Shown: positions 5,896-34,015 of the stretch, piece by piece
Numbering within the stretch: position 1 is the stretch's first letter
Layout of the letters: every line of letters begins with the position of its first letter
Assembly (NCBI RefSeq): GCF_011397635.1
Contig: NC_064775.1
Location: 15,699,452 to 15,763,451 of the forward strand
Direction: 5' to 3'
Length of the DNA: 64,000 nucleotides
DNA from: Epinephelus fuscoguttatus
Lineage: Eukaryota > Chordata > Actinopteri > Perciformes > Serranidae
Notes under the pieces: model-generated
What the model saw: the letters and a program-made list of their open reading frames with translations, nothing else
What the model was told of the DNA's origin: nothing
Database searches by the model: none
Program-made: the position numbers and the translations under genes

Positions 5896-7329
5896 GTGAA
5901 TATTCCCCAGAGTAATGAATTTTAGTTATCTAGCTAATGTCAAACTGTCACCGCTGCGTTTACGCCAAGTTAATTACAAATAAGCCTGGCGAGGCCCTCC
6001 CATCTTGTTAAACTAATTAGCATCTAGCTAACAGTGTCTGCTAGCAAACACAGCGTCAACTAGCAAGGAAATTCAATATGTCAGTGCTTTTTGGTGATAA
6101 AACTGCTGCTGCGCAGTGACTATACTATGTAACTATTATATAGGAATACACATATGCCTAATTTTAGGGCTTTTGATGTAACATAGTCCATATGTAGCAT
6201 TGTTGGCAATAGCATCCTCTGTTTCTGTGTTGTCATTCTTTTTTAAGCAGTTTGCGTTAGCAATGTTCGACACTGTTCAGTTATAGCATGCATTAGGACA
6301 TATGTAACACATTTACAGGGTATATTAAAGAAATTTGAGATACTGGACACTGTAATTGTTTGTAAACCCGTCATAACAAAGGTACATGACTAGTTTGACG
6401 TGGTAGTAACTGCTCTCTCTGTGTCAGTAGGTCAGTAGTGGTCTAAAAACATCATGTCAGCTCATCAAAATAGTACTACTATGGGTTTATTCCTATTTTT
6501 TTGAATTACTTTATATAATGGCACAAATGAAGCTCCACCTGATCCTTGCAACCCCTAATCCTAAATGTCCCCCTACATTTATATAGCTTAGTACATTATT
6601 CATAGCATATCAGGGGCTCTAATGTTTGAATATTGCATGTAAGCCTTAAAATATATTATATTATATTGTCTTGCTGTCCTGACTGATATAAATACAGTTA
6701 CTGTGCTGTTATATTTGTCACCGAGTCACTGTGAAGGTTAGACTGAGTACAAGACAAGTGACAGAATAAACAAAACATCAAAATGATCACTAAAAATGTA
6801 CAAATATAATAGAATAATTTCAGTTTGAGCAAAATATGGAATATTTAAATTGTGCAGAAAGCCTGCTGAGTTTGACATTCGTGTTTAAATGCATACCTTG
6901 GAGGAAATCTTGATCATATAATAGTCATTAAGAGGAGAGAATGCTAGGTCAGATTGTCTCCTCCTGAACACAACAAATAGTAAGTGTATGAAGACTAAGA
7001 TATCTGACAGGCTAATTAATTGTTCAGATTAAGTTTACATTTCATCTCAAAGATACAGAAGTCAATGTCCACTATCAGCTGCAGACTGGAAGTTTTACTC
7101 TACACTTAACTGAATTTCAAAGTTCGAAAAAAAGCATCAGGTGCTCAAATTGAGCATTTATATAACCCAAAATATTGCATAGTACAGTGTAATCTTTAGT
7201 TTAGTTATATTTATGTTGTTTCTTGAGTGCTGAGCCTCCTCAGGATGTTTGCAGCAATTTAACCTGTCTGTCATCTCTCCTCTCTCCCTGTTTCCTACCT
7301 CCCTCTTTTTTCATCTGACATTCAGCACC

Positions 7330-15324: not shown

Positions 15325-15945
15325 TTACAGCAATATTTAAATCTAAATGTTAAATCTAAATCAAAATGTTAAATGTTAAATCTCAGGACACGTTAATGTT
15401 AAATCTAAATGTTAAATCTAAATCTAAATGTTAAATGTTCAATCCAAATCTAAATGTTAAATCTAAATGTTAAATGTTAAATCTAAATGTTAAATCTAAA
15501 TCAAAATGTTAAATGTTGAATCTAAAGGTTAAATCTAAATCCAAATCTAAATCTAAATGTTAAATCTAAATCCAAATGTTAAATGTTGAATCTAAATCTA
15601 AATGTTAAATCTAAATCAAAATGTTAAATGTTAAATCTAAATCTAAATGTTAAATCTAAATCCAAATGTTAAATGTTGAATCTAAATGTTAAATCTAAAA
15701 CAAAATACTAAATGTTAAATCTAAATGTTAAATCCAAATCTAAATGTTAAATGTTAAATCTAAATGTTAAATCTAAATCCAAATGTTAAATCTAAATCCA
15801 AATGTTAAATGTTGAATCTAAATGTTAAATCTAAAACAAAATATTAAATGTTAAATCTAAATGTTAAATCCAAATCTAAATGTCAAATGTTAAATCTAAA
15901 TCTAAATTTTAAATCTAAATATGAAATCTAAATGTTAAATTTAGA
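15325..15945. repeat. AAATCTAAATGTT-type minisatellite
   Basis: About 620 bases consist almost only of two short words, AAATCTA/AAATCCA and AATGTTA, in varied order. Higher-order units such as AAATCTAAATGTTAAATCTAAATC recur. The array is flanked by ordinary sequence and lies just 5' of the paics fragment. No coding potential. Confidence 0.9.
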
Positions 15946-17010: not shown

Positions 17011-17738
17011 AAATGGTCGTACCTTAGCGATGTTTCTGAGGTGGTTTCCGTCACTTTGTTAATGTGGGACCTGAAGGTTTAAATCTGACTCTAGGATCAC
17101 ACCAGGACTTGTAACCTCAGATTTAATCCAGATCGTTAAGGTCATTCATTTAACATTTGTGCATTTTCAGCAGTTCTTCTAAATTTGATTTGAGCTTTCA
17201 GCATTCACACACTTTCTGCAGGAAGTTTTTACTGTGACTCCTATACTGTGTTTCTCTAAAGTAATTAGACTCTCCAAACTAAATAGGTGTATTTCATTTG
17301 AATTGTATGGACACAATTGAAACTGTTGATCCATTAGCAGGATACAAATGATGAGATGTAATGCAGGAAGAGACATAAAATAATGGAATGCAAAAACCGC
17401 CTTAAATTTTTAAATGTATGAATTTATATTTTTATATTTTTAATAAAATATATTGTACGTATATTTTTCATAAAATATATTATATTACATGAAAAAGAAA
17501 ATAGCATATATAATAACATATATATCATAACACTTCTATTGTTATTGTTATTTCTGTTTTTTTTCTATTGTGATCTTGTCCTATATCATATTATGTGATA
17601 ATATAATATGTAATAATAATAATAAGAGTATTTTAATTAAAGTAAATTAAGTATTTAAATTTATATTATTATATTATTTAAAAAAAATATTATATTACAT
17701 AGTCTAATATAGTATAACATAAAATGATATGTGACATA

Positions 17739-19364
17739 CAGTACAGGCCAAAAGTTTGGACACACCTTCTCATTCAATGCGTTTTCTTTATTTTCATGAC
17801 TATTTACATTGTAGATTCTCACTGAAGGCATCAAAACTATGAATGAACACATGTGGAGTTATGTACTTAACAAAAAGGTGAAATAACTGAAAACATGTTT
17901 TATATTCTAGTTTCTTCAAAATAGCCACCCTTTGCTCTGATTACTGCTTTGCACACTCTTGGCATTCTCTCCATGAGCTTCAAGAGGTAGTCACCTGAAA
18001 TGGTTTTCCAACAGTCTTGAAGGAGTTCCCAGAGGTGTTTAGCACTTGTTGGCCCCTTTGCCTTCACTCTGCGGTCCAGCTCACCCCAAACCATCTCGAT
18101 TGGGTTCAGGTCCGGTGACTGTGGAGGCCAGGTCATCTGCCGCAGCACTCCATCACTCTCCTTCTTGGTCAAATAGCCCTTACACAGCCTGGAGGTGTGT
18201 TTGGGGTCATTGTCCTGTTGAAAAATAAATGATCGTCCAACTAAACGCAAACTGGATGGGATGGCATGTCGCTGCAGGATGCTGTGGTAGCCATGCTGGT
18301 TCAGTGTGCCTTCAATTTTGAATAAATCCCCAACAGTGTCACCAGCAAAACACCCACACACCATCACACCTCCTCCTCCATGCTTCACAGTGGGAACCAG
18401 GCATGTGGAATCCATCCATTCACCTTTTCTGCGTCTCACAAAGACACGGCGGTTGGAACCAAAGATCTCAAATTTGGACTCATCAGATCAAAGCACAGAT
18501 TTCCACTGGTCTAATGTCCATTCCTTGTGTTTCTTGGCCCAAACAAATCTCTTCTGCTTGTTGCCTCTCCTTAGCAGTGGTTTCCTAGCAGCTATTTGAC
18601 CATGAAGGCCTGATTTGTGCAGTCTCCTCTTAACAGTTGTTCTAGAGATGGGTCTGCTGCTAGAACTCTGTGTGGCATTCATCTGGTCTCTGATCTGAGC
18701 TGCTGTTAACTTGCGATTTCTGAGGCTGGTGACTCGGATGAACTTATCCTCAGAAGCAGAGGTGACTCTTGGTCTTCCTTTCCTGGGTCGGTCCTCATGT
18801 GTGCCAGTTTCGTTGTAGCGCTTGATGGTTTTTGCGACTCCACTTGGGGACACATTTAAAGTTTTTGCAATTTTCCAGACTGACTGACCTTCATTTCTTA
18901 AAGTAATGATGGCCACTCCTTTTTCTTCAGTTAGCTGATTGGTTCTTGCCATAATATGAATTTTAACAGTTGTCCAATAGGGCTGTCGGCTGTGTATTAA
19001 CCTGACTTCTGCACAACACAACTGATGGTCCCAACCCCATTGATAAAGCAAGAAATTCCACTAATTAACCCTGATAAGGCACACCTGTGAAGTGGAAACC
19101 ATTTCAGGTGACTACCTCTTGAAGCTCATGGAGAGAATGCCAAGAGTGTGCAAAGCAGTAATCAGAGCAAAGGGTGGCTATTTTGAAGAAACTAGAATAT
19201 AAAACATGTTTTCAGTTATTTCACCTTTTTTGTTAAGTACATAACTCCACATGTGTTCATTCATAGTTTTGATGCCTTCAGTGAGAATCTACAATGTAAA
19301 TAGTCATGAAAATAAAGAAAACGCATTGAATGAGAAGGTGTGTCCAAACTTTTGGCCTGTACTG
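17739..19364 (-). mobile_element. Tc1/mariner transposon with long terminal inverted repeats
   Basis: The element is 1,626 bp and is bounded by TA target duplications (17737-17738 and 19365-19366). Its ends read CAGTACAGGCCAAAAGTTTG and its inverse. The inverted repeats are about 270 bp long (17739 to ~18010 and ~19094 to 19364) and nearly identical. The left repeat includes the 3' end of the transposase gene. One transposase frame spans the middle. The ends and the coding region look young. Confidence 0.95.
17900..18952 (-). CDS. Tc1-type DD34E transposase, one in-frame stop
   Basis: The frame starts MARTNQLTEEKGVAIITL and would give 350 residues. A paired helix-turn-helix region comes first (VWKIAKTLNVSPSGVAKTIKRY, then RKLTAAQIRDQMNA). 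The catalytic triad region follows: SDESKFEIFG (first D), QQDNDPKHTS (second D) and SPDLNPIEMVWGELDRR (E). A single TGA at 18488-18490 stands where the family has TGG (KSVL-W-SDESK); otherwise the frame is open end to end. The C-terminal ~30 codons lie inside the terminal repeat. The protein is therefore probably not made in full from this copy, though the ends could be moved by another copy. Confidence 0.93.
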
Positions 19365-19445
19365 TACATATTATATTATGTTATGTTATATTATATTATA
19401 TTATATTATTATAATATATATATATATATTATAATATTGGTATAC

Positions 19446-19480: not shown

Positions 19481-20815
19481 ATTGGTGTGGAGGATGCCAT
19501 CATCTTCCTCACTCACAAGGCCCTGTCTAACTTGGAGAGTGCTGGAAGCACTGTGAGTCATATTCTTTGACTTCTCCAGTGCCTTCAACAGCATTCAACC
19601 CAGCCTCCTGAGAGACAAGTTGCTGGATATGCAACTTCACCCGGACATCACTGCCTGGACTTTGGATTACCTCACGGGCCGGCTGCAGTATGTCTGGGTG
19701 GGTGGCTACGTATCTGAGGTGGTGTCAAGTGACACCAGGGTGCCCCAAGGAACTGTTCTGGCACCATTCTTCTTCACCCTCTACACCTCTGATTTCCGGT
19801 TCAATTCTGGTTCCTGCCACCTCCAAAAGTTTTCCGATGACTCCTCTATAGTCGGGTGCGCCAGAAATGATGACAAGGAGGAGTACAGAGGACTGATTCA
19901 GAGCTTTGTCGCGTGGAGCAACCGAAACCACCTTCAACTCAACATCAGTAAGACTAAGGAGGTGTGGTGGACAACCGGAGGAACCAGAGGCAACCTGCCC
20001 CAGTCACCATCCAGGGCGAGGAGGTGGAGATGGTGGACTCGTACAAGTACCTTGGGATCTACATCAACAATAAACTGGACTGGATTCATAACACAGATGC
20101 CCTCTATAGGAAAGGACAGAGCAGGATGTTCTTCCTGAAGAGACTCAGATCGTTTGGCGTTTGTAGTGGGCTCCTCAAGACCTTCTACCAGTCTGGTTGC
20201 CAGTGCACTCTTCTTTGCTGTAGTGTGCTGGTGGGGTGGAGTTAAGACTGGTGAGGTCAACAGGCTCAACAAGCTTGTGAGGAAAGCTCACTCTGTGGTG
20301 GGACTGGACCTGGACAGTCTGGAGACAGTGGCTGAGAGGAGAGTGAAGGACAAAATCTGTGCAATCCTGGACAATCCTTCTCACCCTCTGCACAACGAGC
20401 TGTGGCTGATGGGCAGCTCATTCAGCCAGCAGATTATCCCACCCAGGAGCAGAACTGAACAATTCAGACGCTTGTATGTGCCCACTGCCATCAGACTGTA
20501 CAACAAGCAACATCCAGCTCTGAACTGACTTATTTTGCATCCGTCCAATATGACACTTTATCTGCCACCTGTCACTTTATTTCATTCAACACTTTGTCTG
20601 CCATTTTTTAGTCACTATATTCATCTGTTGTAGCAATTTTATTTTATCTCTTATTTATCTATTATTATCTTTAATTTTTACATTTTATGTCTTCTCTTTA
20701 ATCTTATTCTATTTAAGGTCCTTTGATTTTGTCTTGTGCTGTTGTGACACTTGAATATCTCCCCTGGGGGATCAATAAAGTATATCTTTTCTTATCTTAT
20801 CTTATCTTAATATAT
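19480..20815 (+). mobile_element. 5'-truncated L2/CR1-clade LINE with 3' tail
   Basis: The coding part is a reverse transcriptase C-terminal two-thirds: DFSSAFNSIQPSLL, VPQGTVLAPFFFTLYTSDF, the catalytic box as FSDDSSIVG, then YKYLGIYINNKLDW and the family tail VGLDLDSLETVAERR. Frame changes near 19970 and 20200 break it. The 3' UTR ends GGGGGATCAATAAAGTATATC and a TCTTATCTTATCTTA repeat at ~20788-20810, typical of this group. The 5' end is lost at the AT tract. Confidence 0.88.
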
Positions 20816-21794: not shown

Positions 21795-23320
21795 TTGCAT
21801 TAGAAGAGCTTACCTGCACGTGAAGGTGCACCCTCAATCCAGGCTCCTCTCTCTCTTTTTCCTCTGTGGAGGAGCTGCAGTCTGGATTTCTGCACACATC
21901 AAAACTTGTTTGAATCTCTTGAATCATAAAGTCTAATGGGACAGACCGACTAAAGAGGGATGTGACGCAACACCTACCTAATCGGACACTTTCCTTTTCC
22001 TCAGAGGTCTGGTTTGGGCCACTGTCACCGGAGAGGATCTTTTTCTTTTTTTTTCCTCTTTGGAGATGAGCAGTCTGGGTTCCTGCAAAGATGAAATGTT
22101 GTTTAAATATCTTGAATCCTACAGTAACAGCACAATCTCTTTAAAACTGGGAAGTGACAAAATACAAACTTTTCAATGATCTCTGGATTTTTGGCCTCGC
22201 TGGATGATGCCTGGTTAGATTCCTGGCGCTTCCCTGTGGGGAAAAAAAGTTTTAAGGTTTCACCAAAACCACCTGCTTTGTTTTTAACTGAGACTGAGAC
22301 CCACTGAACAGGAGTCAAAGATAAGCTTGCTTTTCTTTTGTGTCTCAGACTCATCAGTTGGAGCCTTATTTGAATCATGTGACTGGCTCATCTTCCTCTT
22401 CTTCCCCTCTGGCGAGCATGGAGTTCTGCATAGATGAAATGTGTTTGAATGTCTTGAATTTAAACAGTTGGCATAAATAAGTTCAGACAAATAAAAGAAC
22501 ACTTACCTTAACTCAGGGTGCAAGGCCACAAAAGTCACCCACGTCCTTTTCCTCTGAGGTTTAATTTTGGCCTCAGTGGACGGAGCTTCAGTTTGGGTCT
22601 CACTTGATGAATCCATCACTTCCATCTTCCTCTTCTTCCTCTCTGGCGAGCATGGAGTTCTGCATAGATGAAATATGTTTGAATGTCTTGAATTTTAGCA
22701 GTTAGCTTAAAATAATTTAGACAAATCAAAGAGCACGTACCTCAATCCACTATAGGAAGCTACAAAAGTGGCCCATGTCCTCTTCCTCTGAGTTGTTATT
22801 GTGGACGGAGCTTCAGCCTCTTTCAATTCAAGCAGCAGGCTCATCTTCCTCTTCTTCCTCTCTGGTGAGCTGCTGAATGGAGATCTGCATGGATGAAATG
22901 TGTTTGAATGTCTTGAATTTAAACAGTTGGCATAAATAAGTTCAGACAAATAAAAGAACACTTACCTTAACCCAGGGTGCGAGGCTACAAAGGTCGCCCA
23001 CGTCCTTTTTCTCTGAGGATTAATTTTGGCCTCAGTGGACGGAGCTTCAGTTTGGGCCTCGCTTAAAGAATCCATCACTGTCATCTTCCTTTTCTTCCTC
23101 TCCAGTGATCCAGTGTATGGAGTTCTGCATAGATGAAATATGTTTGAATGTCTTGAACTTGAACAGCAATCTTTATTAAGTATAGACAAATAGAATAACA
23201 CCCACCTTGACCCAGTGTATGAGGCTACAAAGGTCGCCCACGTCCTTTTCCTCTGAGGCGTAGCTGTGGCCATGCTGGATGAAGCCTCAGCTGGAGCCTC
23301 TTTGGAGGTTTCGTGTTGCT
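21795..23320 (-). repeat. Tandem cassette-exon array in the kinase C-terminal tail
   Basis: Exons starting at 23320, 23124, 22884, 22659 and 22425, plus decayed copies starting at 22082 and 21889, repeat with their introns at about 190-370 bp spacing. Each good copy encodes a SPERKKRKM box, a variable acidic middle (such as [13 protein letters not shown]) and a [13 protein letters not shown] box ending in GLR/GSR. Copies 22966-23124, 22741-22884 and 22507-22659 are 159, 144 and 153 bp with phase 2 at both ends, so any can be skipped without breaking the frame. The intron word GATGAAATRTGTTTGAATGTCTTGAA recurs before them. The last two copies keep the acceptor and the NPDCSS start but lose the TWATFVAS box. 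Confidence 0.88.
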
Positions 23321-26300
23321 CTGCATAAAAGGAAAAATGAAAAATATAAAGTTATGATGCTTACAATGCTTCAACGTGTTATTCATTTAAAGCTGATCTC
23401 AAATGTGTGCTGCTATAGATGATTCTACCTGCATGTGTCTCGATTAGATCCATCCTCATCTTCTTCTTCGGGGCTGGGCCGCTCTCCAGACTTCTGCATA
23501 GATCAAATACAGTTTCAGTCTTTTCAATTTTAACAGCAAATATCAGGTAATCTGTATATATACACGTATACTGCAAAGTAAGACCAGGAAGGGTATACAA
23601 CACTCACCTGTCACCGCTCTGTGAGGTTTCAGAAAACCTCCTCTTCAGTTTCCTCACATCCGATACTTTGCCAGTATCGGATGTAGCCACAGAGGTGGTG
23701 GGCAACTGGTGCTCTGGCGTTGCCTTTCCCTTGGCAACGGAACAGCTGAGTTGCTGTGGCCGTGGTGGACTCTGGTCGTCACAGATGGAGAGGCTACTGA
23801 AGATGGCCGATGCAACCTCCAGTACCAGGGGATGCTCCTGGTGATTGTGCCAAGCAGGAGCAACCTGGCTGGGGGTATTGTGCTGGTCCAGGGTGGCTGT
23901 GCTGGTGGAGGCCTGCGGGTTGAGCCATGAATCCTGTTCCATGTCTTCTGATCTCTGACTCTGATCCCGACAGACTTCCATCATCTCACAAGCTGATTTG
24001 GTGCTAAGAGAAGATCAATAATTAAATCAACATTCGTCCATCCGCACCAGCACAGATGTTCTACACACAGCATTTTAATGTAGACCTACTAGAAGCTGTT
24101 GGGGTAGCTGTCAATGAGGTCAGTCATGGTGATGAATGGATCCTCAAGAAGAAGGCTGGGCGATATCCGTTTCCTTGGGTCCAGATAAAGCATCTTCTTG
24201 AGTAAATCAATGAAGTTGTCCACATCTTCAACTTGTGCCATGGTGTCCTCATCTGACAGATGGCAGACTGGTCTAATCTGAGAATAAATCAGAATAAATC
24301 ACAAAGGTCAGAAAAATCTCTGTTTATCTTAATGGTGCTTATGATTTGTGGCGAATGTACTCATTTTTAAGAAGAAAAAAAAATCTGATTTGCCAAATGC
24401 AACTTCCTACCTTCTTCAAATCATCCAGGGAGTTGAACTTGCTATTGCCCCTGGTGACTTGTCCGTATTCCAAATGTGTCTGAAGAGAAATTTCGTTCGA
24501 TTAGCTTAAACACAGTGAGCAGCATGACAAAGACAAAGACACTGATGGATACAAAGATAAAAAGGAAGCCATTCTGGCTGACAGTGTTCATACCTTCAAT
24601 CTCCAGCGGCGTCCATGGCGTCTGCCACTGCAGAAGAAGTCCCTTGTTTTGCTGCCATTGTCCAGAAGTCCGAGCGGCAGCTGACCCTGGGTCTGAACCA
24701 TATGTCGTAGCTGTTGGCACAACACAAAGTCACAAAGTCAGTTACACTTATTAAATATAAAGATTTCTTTTTGTTGTTTTATTTGTTTTGTTAGAGGAGT
24801 AACTGCAAAGTGACACACTACTGCACAAATATAAATGCTCATTACAGCAGAGCCCATGGCCTAGCCTCTGTGTAGAAATGACACACAAACATAAATCCGC
24901 CTTTAGTTGTAATACTGACCATGTCATACTCGCTGCTGCCAGGGTACAGGGCATAGCCTAGGAACAACTCCGCATCAGTGCAGCCTAAAGACCACATGGC
25001 AATGGCTGCTGTGCAGGGATGTCCCAGGATGACCTCTGGAGACCTGAGAAAAGAAATACAAATACATTGTTTAGGTTATTTGTTTTAGTTGCTTTAGTAG
25101 ATATAAAATCTAAATCCTGAACTCTGCCATCTGTTACTTACCTGTAGTAAAGCGCCTGCATTTCTTCACCACTCTTCATCTGGGAAGCATGACGGGACAA
25201 GCCAAAGTCAATCATCTTAACCTTCAAAGGCTGGTTTACATGGTCCACCATCATGATATTGTCTGGCTTGAGATCTGTGTGCACGAGTCCAAGGCTTCCC
25301 AGGAGTTGTAGAGTCGTGGCCATCTGAAAGTCACGAATGAATCATGTTATAAAGTCAGTCGCTGTATACAGGTCAGTTTTTGTTTCTGAACATGGGCTTT
25401 GCCAGGCTGAGGGCCCTGTAAGATCTGAGCTGAGTATAATTTCAGAGCAAATTAGTTATTTCCAGTTGGTGGAACAGAAACAGAAACACCTGACAATTTA
25501 ATGCAGTGGATCTGAGTCCTGTACAATATGGATTATAGTCCACCTGGTGGACAAAATAGCAGGAAATTCACCACAACAGTGTGCTCCAGGGATCAAAAAT
25601 GCAAACTTATTCCCAGGTTTTGAGACTCTATATGACAGCACCACAGAATACCCTCAAAAACACTACTCTGGTTGCCAAACAGCAAAGTCCAGTCACACCT
25701 TGGCAACCTTGGCAATAGCTACATTGATCATAAACAGGTGAGGAGGCTGACCTTTAACCTTGGACATGTTGCTTTAGCCTCAGTTGTTAGCACTGCATGT
25801 ATGTAGCTGCCAAGTGCATATTTCAGATACCTTTTACAGGATTCTCATTTTAAAACTGATCGGCTGGAAACATTAAAAGGTCAGCCTGAAAACTCACTGT
25901 CACTGTTATCATTGTAAGCTGTATCTTGTGGGAATGGGAAACTTGACAGGTAGAGTAACAGTGACAAGGCTTGGTGAATTGTATTTTAATGTGACCATCT
26001 CCTGTATGCAGTACATACCTGGTGCAGGATGGGGCGGATCTCTTTCACAGAGAAACAGTTGCGAGGTCTCTTTTCCAAGAAAGTGCACAAACTCATGTCC
26101 AGCATTTCAAACTCAAGACAAAATCGCTCTTTGTCAGTAAAAGCACCGTAGTATCTGACAAAGTTGTATCTGTCTGAGTCGAAAGCTCTCAGTTGTTTAA
26201 GGATGGCAGCCTGGGGAACATATCAGATGTTAGATTTCAGGCAAATGATTTAAAGTACATTTGAAGCATTGCACTGTACAAATGAAACCTTTGATACCTA

Positions 26301-28580
26301 CCTCGTTCAATGCCTCAAATTTATAGGTGTTGTTGATGATCTTCACAGCCACTGTTTCCTTAGTGGCTGACTTGGTGCACTTGGCGACTTTTCCAAAGAC
26401 TCCCTGCCCCAAAAACGAGCAGATCAAGTAATCTGAGGAGGGGGAGGAGAGGACGCCAAGGATGACCTGGGACTCATCATCTGAAGATGAGGAGGAGGAT
26501 GTGGTGTCCTCTTCAGATGTTGTAGCATACTGAACTATGTCCCGGTAACTTGTAGACTAGAGGAGAAGGAAAGAGTGATGGAGACAACATGTCGTCACAT
26601 TTTGTCCCAAAACAAGACACCAGCAATAGTAGTATGAAGAGTTTACATGCAGAGATGATATTTATCATGCCCTCTTTTTGTTTTAGTGCAGAGTAAATCA
26701 GAGAGATAAAGATTTGAAAACCCATTTCCTAAATTCCACTATATTTAGAAGATTTACCCCCACTGATTTCAAATAAAGATAACTGATCACATCTCTGTCT
26801 GAAAAGCAACCATGATGCCACATGCCATTTTTTGTTTTTCTTATCAGACTTAATACAACCTTCATGAAAATACAAACTTAAAATAAGGTGTGAGATGGGG
26901 TGCAACTATCTCAGCTTATCCTGCGTATGTAGTCACATAAACATATCTGCTTATTAGTTAATAAAAGCAGATCACTGGAGTCTACTTTAACTTCCTCCCA
27001 CAGTCCAAAGACATGCAGGTTAATTGGTGACTCTAAATTGGCCGTAGGTGTGAATGTGAGTGTGAATGGTTGTCTGTCTTGATGTGTCAGCCCGTGATAG
27101 TCTGGTGACCTGTCTTTTCGATGTCAAAGCAAATCATGTTGGTTGTACTAAATTAATTGAGTTTGTCAGATTATTAAATACTCATAGGATTGACTCGATA
27201 ATGCCAGAGTTGGAACTACTTCAAAAGATGCATGCAAATTGTTGCCTTAATTTTTAAAAGTTAAACCAGTGGATGCTTGTTTACAGTGTATAATAACATT
27301 GTCTATCACAACTTGTACTTGTGTGTGTATTTTACTGTTTCCTGACACCATGAGTTTGGTTTTGTTTAAATTTAATGATAATTTGTTCAGAGTGACTATT
27401 TAAGTACCCCAGTATAAATAGCCTTGGCCTCACAGCTGAGCTATTTTCACCCCTGTATGACGTGTGACAACAAACTTTGTGGGTACAAAAAACCTATAAA
27501 TTGTGAAGATAGTAAAGTCTTGTGTGTGACTTATGCTTCAGGGATTTATACTTTGGGATTTATCCAGGTTTCATACGAGCAGAGGAAATCTCTGCTCGTC
27601 GCTCGGCTAATTTACACAATGTAAAATGCCATAGGCTTGTACTAATAACGTTAGCATTTTGTATTTGTTTGGAACACATGTTTAGTATGACAGTTGTTTT
27701 GTCGGTGAATCTTGTGACTTGTAATGGAGCCAAACTGTGTGCTGTTACCTTCATGAAATGTTGCTGTTGTCCCTGGTTTTATATGAGAGGAGGGAAAGAT
27801 CGCTAGTTGCTCGGCTAATTTATACAATGTAAAATGCCATAGGCTTGTGCTAATAACATCAGCATGTTGTATTTGTGGGGAAAATGTGTCTGGATTAACA
27901 CAAACATTTGTCTGTGAATGCTGCGAGTTATAGTGAAGCTGATTTGTGTACTTGTGTTTGAAACTGTTGCTATTAAGCCATGTTTAATGTGTGTTTTGGG
28001 TGTGTTTTAAATCAACTAAACTTTACAGTGCTTAACTGAAACAACCGCCGACAAGTGTTTTGGAGGTGTAACTGCAGAATGACCACCGCGCAATTAAAAA
28101 TGCTCACAACGGCGTGGGCTAACTAAACCACTAGCTATATAGCTAACGTAAGTCCTGAGGGTTGAGGTTGACAAGATAATAGTTTAGTTGTACAAAATGA
28201 GGGTACAAATATTTGCACCAAGGTGGGTATAAACAGCACACGTCACTATAATCCAGGGTACGACAAACCCTAGGTTAGCTACATAGCTAACGATTCGTTA
28301 GCATACACTGCTATACACCAGGGTACAAATAGCATCCTCTTCTAATTGTTTCCCGGTACAAATAGCAATATGTTGATATTTGCACCAGGGTGAAAATAGC
28401 CCTTACCTAATTTGTTTCTGACAAACCACATTTTTAATTTATTCATTTCTGCTGTGACTGTACAAATTGTTGCCAGTGTCTCATAGTATACATCTTTGCA
28501 GGGAAACTGATTTTCACAGAAACAAACAAATTGAATCAATTTACCATTTTGTCGCTTGTTGTATCTTGAGAGATCGTCAT
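22284..28580 (-). CDS. HIPK-like (homeodomain-interacting protein kinase-like) Ser/Thr/Tyr kinase
   Basis: Coding exons on the minus strand: 28545-28580, 26302-26556, 26019-26210, 25142-25323, 24920-25043, 24594-24710, 24411-24479, 24090-24277, 23608-24003, 23429-23493, 23206-23320, 22966-23124, 22741-22884, 22507-22659 and 22425 down to a stop at 22284. Phases agree throughout. The short first exon gives [12 protein letters not shown], then a serine-rich acidic stretch. The kinase domain follows: P-loop [12 protein letters not shown], lysine VAVKII, catalytic loop HTDLKPDN (HIPKs have HADLKPEN), IDFGLS and activation segment [13 protein letters not shown]. All catalytic residues are present. 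The tail, after ~132 residues of Ser/Gln-rich sequence, is made of repeated cassette exons rich in basic motifs. Fish genomes carry many HIPK-like genes; the symbol of this one cannot be assigned. Confidence 0.88.
26990..27118 (+). repeat. Fragment of the tRNA-derived SINE
   Basis: Sequence from CTTCCTCCCACAGTCCAAAG through GTGTGAATGTGAGTGTGAATGG to GATAGTCTGGTGACCTGTC matches the body of the SINE seen in full at 51426-51807. Both ends are missing and it is more diverged than the copies in the CD200 array. Confidence 0.75.
27560..27890. repeat. Local direct duplication inside the kinase intron
   Basis: The phrase GCTCGGCTAATTTAYACAATGTAAAATGCCATAGGCTTG begins near 27601 and again near 27810. 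The two copies are ~208 bp apart and about 85-90% alike by eye. Confidence 0.75.
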
Positions 28581-31589: not shown

Positions 31590-31801
31590 AACACTCATTC
31601 CAGAGCAGGAAACAGCACTTCAAAATAAAAGCTTTGTGCTGGAAATTCACTGAACTTAAAAATAGTGTCTTTTTAAGGTCCATTCAGAGTGGACCCGCGA
31701 CCCATGAGTTGGGAACCACTGCTGTAGTGATTCATGCTGTTCAGGCTTGTTTGTGTGCATGTGCACAGACGGAATGCCACCTGATAGGTGTGGGCACGTC
31801 C

Positions 31802-33171
31802 TTACACCGAATACTTTGGTCAGAGAGTGAACCCTGGTTTTAGAGATAAAGTGGAGTTTAAATATGCTGGACTGCAGAACAGCTCCATAGTTATTAATAA
31901 TGTAAATGAGGAAGATGAAGGATGCTATCACTGTTTGTACAGCACTTTCCCTGATGGAGTTTTCACTGGTTCAACCTGCCTCCAACTCTATGGTAAGAAC
32001 CTTACAGTGTTATTAAAGACATCCCCATCATCCTTAAAGTCTGGCCTGTAAAAACTTGATGTGATGTTTTTAAATGTGTGGTGTGTGCAGAGCTGCATGA
32101 ACCCGTTCTACATGTCAGAGAATCAAACTCTCCTGAAGAGGCAGTTGTATCCTGCTCGGCCACAGGTCGACCTGCTCCCACAGTAACACTGACTGTCCCT
32201 CACTACAACTCTACCAGTGTCACCAACACCAACGCTACAGTCACTGTCACCGCTATAGCCGTGTTGCCTCGTCTCCATGGCAACAGCACACAGGTTGGAT
32301 GTGCAGTGCGAGTGCTCTCTGGTCCTCAGATAGAGGTGTTTACCATGATTCCTGAGGTCACACTGTCGTCTGCTGATGGTGAGAAACACTTCCAAAGATC
32401 CAATGAGGAATCTGCGTCTGACAAAGGTGATTTCACTAAGTGAACCTTTATGTGGTCTCATGTCAGTATCACCATTTGATCTGTAGTTGCTTTATGAATG
32501 TTGAGTGTTACTAATTTTCCTCTCTTCTCACAGATGCCACTTTGATCATTGTGTTGGTCGTGGTGTCCTGTGTTTGTGTTGCTATCATTATTGCCGGCCT
32601 GCTTATTAAAAAACATTGCAACTGGTAATTATAAACTTTTAAACTTGCCTTGTTGTAACATCAGTGTCTCACAGTTAATATTATAATTACTGATTGAGAT
32701 TTATTTAGACAAAACCCACAAATAAATGTTTGTTCAGCACTGACTTTTCTTAAATCCTTCAGGCTGTCACACAGAGACTGTGAGGAGAACAGGACACCAC
32801 AAAAAACAACCAAAGACACTGAGTAAGTCACTTAATTCATTTTTCATTTGTGCTTTCATCTGTACCTCTGTAACTCATGTATTAACATATTTATGAAGTC
32901 AACCGTGATGCATTGTAGCCTACTGTTCTTGGACCATTATGTGTTCACAGTCAGCAAGTTTATCTCCATCACTGTTGTTCAGAGTGATTTGGAAACTGAC
33001 TTATATCTTATTTTTATCTGAAGGCCCAAAACACCTTTACTGAGTCAAGAGAACGAGGTGCGTCAGAAGACGTCTTCTGGGAAAAAGAAAGAAAATGGCT
33101 CCCCAAAAGAATCATCTCTGATAGCAGGGTGTCAGCGACAGCTGTTTTTACCATCGCCACAAGACTGTTAA
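31802..33171 (+). pseudogene. CD200/OX-2-like copy A, lacking promoter core, leader and half of IgV
   Basis: CD200 is an immune-inhibitory membrane ligand with IgV and IgC domains. Copy A keeps the second half of the IgV exon (to 31992; VEFKYAGLQNSSIVI, DEGCYHCLYSTF) and the IgC exon from 32091 (CSATGRPAPTVTLTV, many N-glycosylation sites). That exon ends at 32378 or, by read-through, at 32426. The TM exon is 32534-32624 (LIIVLVVVSCVCVAIIIAGLL), followed by tail exons 32763-32822 and 33024-33171. Phases still match. There is no signal peptide, no first IgV cysteine and no start codon in place, because the upstream flank is joined straight into the IgV exon at about 31800. It is likely dead, though it is the only copy with a whole IgC exon. 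Confidence 0.88.
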
Positions 33172-34015
33172 ACCAAAACAGGGGAACTAGAAGAAAGCAG
33201 CTCCCTGGAGCTTCAACAGTCACATGTAGAGCTCTGAAGCAGGTAACTTCACTGTAACTCAGAGTCACAGTGACTGCAACACAGTGCAACAGTAAAGCTT
33301 TGATTCAAACTAATCTAACAGGCAGATGACCAGAATACAAGCTCATGTGTTTTGATGAGAACAAGGAAATGTCCTGTGAGGTTATAGCGCCATCTAGTGT
33401 GCTTTGTGAGGAGGAAGACATTGACATGAGCCCAAGTGCGTCTCACCCATACACTGTATAAAAATAGGTCTCACTAAGGAATATAATACACAGCTAACTG
33501 GAGCTGTGTATTTGATTCAGTGATCCATAAAGTTGACATGTGAAGTAATCAGGTGATTATTTTATTCCAAATTAGCACATTTGTATATAACTATAACTGT
33601 ATGCAGCTATAAAGTTTAATTTACAGCTAACATATTAAATAACACACACGATGTTATTTTCTGCATAATATTTCTGTGTGTTCTTAATTTTGCACTTGAC
33701 TCTGTTTTTTTTCTGTCTGGACACATTATGTAGTTGTAATTGTGGTAAAGTGTTGACTGTATATGGGTCAGATGTTTTTTGCTGTTGTCTTCTGTCTGTT
33801 TATATGTTTCTGCACTTGATGTGCTGTGCTTTATGTCCAAGGCATTTCTAATGATCTAATGTTGTAGATTTAATAATTGTTCTCTGACTGTTTATGTTAA
33901 TTTATTTTTGTTTTGTTTATTAAACAGATGTGTTAATGTCACGAGTGGTTTCACTTCTGTTCACTTCATGTTGCTGTTGCCCCTGATTCTTATTCATGAC
34001 AGTGAGGTGTTTGTC
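33172..34015 (+). other. 3' UTR-like sequence of copy A
   Basis: Includes ATTAAA at about 33919-33924 and matches the sequence after the stop in copies B and C. Nothing else is seen. Confidence 0.5.

Follow-up and report, generated by a model that had tools for sequence, protein, structure and literature searches.

Introduction

How does a protein kinase come to carry a tail of repeated, frame-neutral exons, and what would such a tail do? The question is raised by a gene in a 64,000-nt stretch of the Epinephelus fuscoguttatus genome, hereafter the window, in which a sequence-only reading noticed tandem exon copies behind a kinase. The exon structure, the phases, the homology of the copies, the differences in copy number between loci and the integrity of the window copy are now established. 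Here, we describe the gene and its relatives, propose how the array arose, and weigh several accounts of how the tail would work.

The Kinase Gene

The minus strand of the window carries an intact 15-exon model of a HIPK-family kinase (28580-22284; 2337 nt, encoding 778 amino acids and a stop). All 14 of its introns are GT-AG and the model is free of lesions. The first coding exon, E1 (28545..28580, minus strand as for all exons below), supplies the ATG and is the weakest exon assignment, with no conserved partner at the related locus A. The kinase exons are assigned from the model together with PDB alignment: K2 (26302..26556), which holds the glycine loop and the ATP lysine, K3 (26019..26210), K4 (25142..25323), which holds the catalytic loop HTDLKPDN and the DFG motif, K5 (24920..25043), K6 (24594..24710), K7 (24411..24479), and the last of them, K8 (24090..24277), which is also backed by a search of the fish's own genome. 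The long, non-repeated tail exon T4 (23608..24003) is assigned from the model and from own-genome search.

The claim that the kinase is HIPK-like is borne out. Among PDB sequences, the kinase part (first 402 residues) matches HIPK3 best (E 1.1e-92), two HIPK2 matches have E values of 7.8e-90 and 9.7e-89, and DYRK1A comes next at 6.1e-41; these PDB matches place the kinase domain nearer HIPK than either DYRK or CLK. Pfam recognizes a protein kinase domain in the model (E 1e-43), and the ATP lysine, the catalytic-loop aspartate (HTDLKPDN) and DFG are all present when the model is aligned to HIPK3. The tyrosine of STYLQS in the activation loop, which we take to be the HIPK regulatory site, is absent from the model: the segment aligned with HIPK3 KTVCSTYLQSRYYR has no STY tyrosine. 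This absence weakens a claim of normal HIPK regulation and leaves HIPK kinship untouched. By its sequence, the gene is a member of a small clade of HIPK-related kinases and ends in a tail of duplicated exons.

Other features of the window are recorded here for completeness. At 17667-19436, about 1.1 kb is enclosed by inverted repeats measuring 210 nt (89%) and 135 nt (100%), an element that we take to be a Tc1-like transposon. A reverse-transcriptase-like LINE fragment, recognized by eye, lies at 19500-20550, 3' of the kinase gene like the Tc1-like element. At 15337-15940 a unit of 13/26/39 bp (TTAAATCTAAATG) is repeated in tandem. On the plus strand, exons at 31800-33200 resemble by eye those of a membrane protein of the immunoglobulin superfamily, and at about 34697 a second start comes with what looks, again by eye, like a signal peptide.

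The Tail Exon Array

The region at 22384-23257 is a tandem repeat with a period of 234 and 3.8 copies, and the same array region can also be resolved as four in-register copies of 226 nt. Adjacent homologous exons are repeated here together with their introns, which identifies a tandem exon duplication array and confirms the exon-level expansion in one gene that had been proposed. The array starts with an A-box exon, A5 (23429..23493; 65 nt, phase 2 to 1), whose box is APKKKMRM, followed by a B-box exon, B6 (23206..23320; 115 nt, phase 1 to 2). Next come three fused A+B exons, each running from phase 2 to phase 2: AB7 (22966..23124; 159 nt), AB8 (22741..22884; 144 nt), and AB9 (22507..22659; 153 nt). 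The model ends with A10 (22284..22425), an A-box exon that includes the stop and that from 22330 on can alternatively be read as a 97-nt GC-AG intron. The interval first given for the array, 21795..23320, does contain array exons; its start was misplaced, as the array begins upstream with A5.

The frame is kept when AB7, AB8, or AB9 is left out singly and when all three are left out, in agreement with the sequence-only reading, which had described three internal frame-neutral exons with phase 2 at both ends. Removal of B6 breaks the frame, so this exon is not skippable in frame. The A box reads ERKKRKM. It had been suggested that every copy adds an RKKRKM box and a second box, and this holds except that the second box of AB9 differs, that B6 carries the B box only and that A10 carries the A box only. 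KKRK and RKRTW each occur four times in the tail, and an alignment of the three AB units shows them to be the invariant parts of the unit. The AB unit belongs to no Pfam family at E up to 1 (0 families), and a known domain was also set aside on the PDB side, where the sole match, at E 1.5, was treated as chance.

The introns between B6 and A10, i6 to i9, are all 81 nt long. Their acceptors are near-identical and weak in all four cases, with ATGCAG after a short pyrimidine-poor stretch, and the donors of i7 and i9 are GTAAGT. Intron 6 (23205-23125, 81 nt) is free of stops in frame, and its retention would add 27 in-frame residues. A mobile element or a simple repeat was rejected as the source of the array because the copies bear splice sites, frame and shared boxes; the Tc1-like element and the LINE fragment sit 3' of the gene.

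The 3' End of the Gene

Three diverged copies lie beyond A10. B11 (22170..22233) is a B exon that, once spliced to A10, would run from phase 1 to phase 2 and share the phases of B6, which favors the array model. AB12 (21978..22082) is an AB copy with an in-frame stop, in which the A run is one base shorter than that of locus A, and A13 (21814..21889) is an A copy with a donor-like site behind it. None of 500 letter shuffles reaches the alignment score of B11-B6, AB12-AB9, or A13-AB7, and the weaker pairings AB12-AB7 and A13-A5 are reached by 5 and 21 of 500, respectively. The decay toward the 3' end that had been noticed is real, and the five readable copies counted at the time (B6, AB7, AB8, AB9, A10) can be retained; the two decaying copies counted with them are in fact three.

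The position at which the protein ends is ambiguous, since A10 may run to its own stop or may be spliced to B11 through the GC-AG intron. In the latter case, the 97-nt intron gives phases as in A5-B6, and the reading frame closes within AB12. In locus A, AB12 is open until a stop at its last codon. Introns i10 and i5, modeled as positional equivalents, show no sequence similarity to each other (359 of 500 shuffles reach the score).

Related Loci in the Genome

The genome searched comprises 1,046,998,120 bases in 26 contigs. Own-genome searches score the best candidates only, so that all match counts are lower bounds. A DNA search with the array interval gave at least nine matches, which fall at four loci, one of them that of the window gene. 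When a single unit was searched as protein, at least 11 matches came from these four loci, with four in the window, two at locus A, four at C10 and one at C2, the last of which is weak (E 1.85). A search with T4-A5-B6 gave at least 19 matches, 16 of them in three of the four loci; the three matches elsewhere (E 1.6 to 4.6) were treated as chance. Finally, a search with K8 gave at least 15 matches, led by the four loci (E 3e-35 to 1e-23), and the eleven matches beyond them have E values of 1.2e-8 to 3.1e-4. The sequence-only reading had stated that it would count against it if no related gene carried the unit; the unit is present at three further loci, each of them damaged.

The state of these relatives was judged on stretches fetched around each locus. 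Locus A is a partial copy on C24, at about 15.027 Mb and 0.7 Mb from the window gene, with which it is 98.3% identical over 3445 ungapped positions (BLAST pieces 91-99%). It has one AB exon and array introns of 81 nt. At locus A no E1 can be aligned, K2 is missing its first 24 nt and K3 its first 78 nt; in addition, the donors that follow K2 and K7 are altered, T4 has one base too many and B6 one too few. The C10 copy, on chromosome-scale contig 10, contains two AB exons besides a 291-nt exon with A, B, A, and B boxes; its array introns are 81, 80, and 80 nt long. The 291-nt exon (reverse complement 6703-6993 of the fetched stretch L011) consists of A5, B6, and an AB8-like unit fused together. 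The two AB exons are 159 and 159 nt long, multiples of three like the 159, 144, and 153 nt of the window. Lesions of the C10 copy are a 10-nt deletion in K2 and a stop in the last AB exon. What remains at C2 (contig 2) is a fragment: stretches resembling K6-K8, interrupted by stops in K6 and in K7, and a single A-type unit. The aligned C2 stretch contained no K2-K5, which could lie further away. The kinase parts are damaged at locus A, C10, and C2, and in the stretches fetched the only lesion-free copy is that of the window.

Proposed Origin of the Array

In the array loci, one intact gene and three damaged relatives, the split pair, the fused exon and the array are all represented as stages. 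We propose that the ancestral pair would have consisted of an A exon, a phase-1 intron, and a B exon, and that this pair would have been duplicated. Loss of the inner intron in one copy would have produced a symmetric AB exon of phase 2-2, which could then be multiplied or deleted freely with the frame surviving any copy number. Unit number would change through unequal recombination.

The first exon of C10 and the AB exons are without the A5/B6 intron. For this reason a gain of the intron at A5/B6 was considered. It was set aside because the A10/B11 intron has the same place and phase, which makes intron losses the simpler account; given the dissimilarity of i5 and i10, however, a gain may still have occurred. 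Intron 5 (108 nt) has ATGCAG on both flanks, and simple deletion from one copy to the other could therefore excise the intron exactly. In the 291-nt exon of C10, the first lost intron is missing exactly at its ends and the second is missing along with some exon sequence. Intron loss mediated by cDNA was rejected for this second junction, where part of the exon is gone as well and the change looks like an ordinary deletion.

The partner of AB8 is the fused C10 exon (86% identity between the exons and 90% between the following introns), and at least two unit types therefore predate the parting of the copies on the two chromosomes. Introns i7 and i9 are 99% identical and AB7 and AB9 are 88% identical, so that introns are as alike as exons or more. 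At 43 sites that separate AB7 from AB9, neighboring introns included, locus A is AB7-like at 34 and AB9-like at 9, and after its AB7-like unit it continues to A10. The arrangement fits a loss at locus A of two units between the near-identical i7 and i9. Alternatively, the window copy may have gained two units.

Selection and the Proposed Working of the Tail

Between the window and C10, dN/dS is 0.37 for K3-K8 (approximate Fisher p 3e-5) and 0.52 for the whole tail (approximate Fisher p 0.003); the test is approximate in that fractional counts were cut to whole numbers, and the ratios mix constrained and unconstrained time because C10 and locus A are damaged. Comparisons of window units with C10 units give 0.29 (AB7-c7), 0.35 (AB7-c9), 0.25 (AB9-c7) and 0.22 (AB9-c9), and AB8 against the fused C10 exon gives 0.47 (p 0.16). 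Within the window the values are 0.21 (AB7-AB8), 0.31 (AB7-AB9), and 0.44 (AB8-AB9), and within C10 the value is 0.16 (c7-c9). Higher ratios are seen for A10 (0.94) and A5+B6 (0.66) against C10, and AB7 against the AB unit of locus A gives 1.51 (1 synonymous and 5 replacement changes). These data suggest moderate constraint on the tail. The units may instead have been kept alike by homogenization through exchange and not by selection, since introns match between copies as well as exons do or better.

Changes from K4 to A10 were assigned to branches with C10 as the outgroup; AB8 and AB9, which have no partner at locus A, were omitted. Since the split from locus A, the window branch has acquired 5 synonymous and 3 replacement changes (p 0.017 against a neutral share of 0.775). 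On the A branch the counts are 6 and 10 (p 0.13 against neutral), and one change is unresolved. The tail exons alone give no constraint signal on the window branch (2 synonymous, 3 replacement; p 0.31), and the contrast between the window and A branches is not significant (p 0.39).

We favor, with some reserve, the reading that frame-neutral duplicated exons build a flexible multivalent tail in which splicing as a rule includes every unit and unit number sets avidity. Routine inclusion of the AB units would follow from the short introns (81 nt), recognized across the intron; in short introns the splice sites are reported to pair preferentially across the intron (PMC9225289), which favors inclusion of the exons or retention of the introns over skipping, and intron definition is also discussed elsewhere (PMC6142364). 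Each unit would add a basic KKRK cluster, for nuclear import or contact with nucleic acid or a partner, and an RKRTWATFV segment, for partner contact and possibly phosphorylated at T. Unit number would set avidity and not a new activity. We assume that KKRK fits the classical import core and that RKRT fits a basophilic-kinase site, and the tail is probably nuclear-targeting.

The tail could also be neutral clutter, made of in-frame, disordered duplications that are tolerated at the end of a working kinase. We regard this as unlikely: it accommodates the two fewer units of the close copy A, the unit turnover at C10, the weak selection signal on the window tail branch and introns conserved as much as exons, but it does not sit well with dN/dS below 1 in most unit comparisons, with AB exon indels that are multiples of three, or with the invariance of both boxes. 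We give little credence to a regulated cassette array, in which the cell would pick the number of AB exons and tune tail length by tissue or state. Each AB exon is indeed removable in frame and the near-identical weak ATGCAG acceptors of all four array introns would suit such a choice, but the four introns are of a length, 81 nt, at which the two ends of an intron are recognized as a pair (PMC9225289, PMC6142364), the donors of i7 and i9 are GTAAGT, and duplicated copies inherit symmetric phases, which can be explained without skipping. Similarly doubtful is the idea of a length dial, by which the fused AB exon would be copied or deleted without penalty and the number of units would set nuclear retention or partner binding; unit number would then differ between gene copies and perhaps individuals, and splicing could change it further. 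That the window gene is a young pseudogene whose lesion is yet to come is very improbable, for although three of four loci are damaged and the close copy A differs by less than 2%, ungapped, in the aligned stretch, locus A has in the same time gained its donor changes, its K2 and K3 losses, the extra base in T4 and the missing base in B6 where the window copy gained none, and the whole-gene changes on the window branch lean synonymous (p 0.017).

The gene and its relatives are a compact natural case of how a protein tail can gain and lose short repeated motifs via frame-neutral exons. If unit number varies among individuals or transcripts, motif valency in a kinase tail becomes directly testable.

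Comparison with Known Systems

The window kinase aligns with HIPK3 at residues 35-401 and with HIPK2 at residues 33-392, and these alignments take in the stretch directly behind the kinase domain. The tails of HIPKs contain homeobox-interacting, SUMO-interacting, and autoinhibitory regions. Unlike HIPK1-3, the window kinase has a short tail made of repeated basic units. When the tail was used to search its own genome, low E values were obtained within its clade only. The literature, which was only partly searchable, yielded no comparable HIPK tail, which is weak evidence of absence, and a literature search for 'WATFVAS' returned 0 papers. Expansions of HIPK genes in fishes have been described: the HIPK family is reported as expanded in the yellow goosefish (PMC7729161), and a Hipk1 family is reported as peculiar to marine medaka in a comparison of fishes (PMC7493909). 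Both statements concern gene number, whereas the window case is an exon array in the tail.

In architecture, the gene resembles tandem duplicated exon arrays such as Dscam, clustered cassettes, and mutually exclusive exons, which likewise consist of head-to-tail copies with shared phases in one gene. Tandem 5' cassettes of Dscam are reported from Chelicerata (PMC4835542). In contrast to Dscam and mutually exclusive exons, the window copies can all join in frame and show no sign of choice. Tandem exon duplication is already well known; within the part of the literature that was searched, a HIPK tail built in this way is new.
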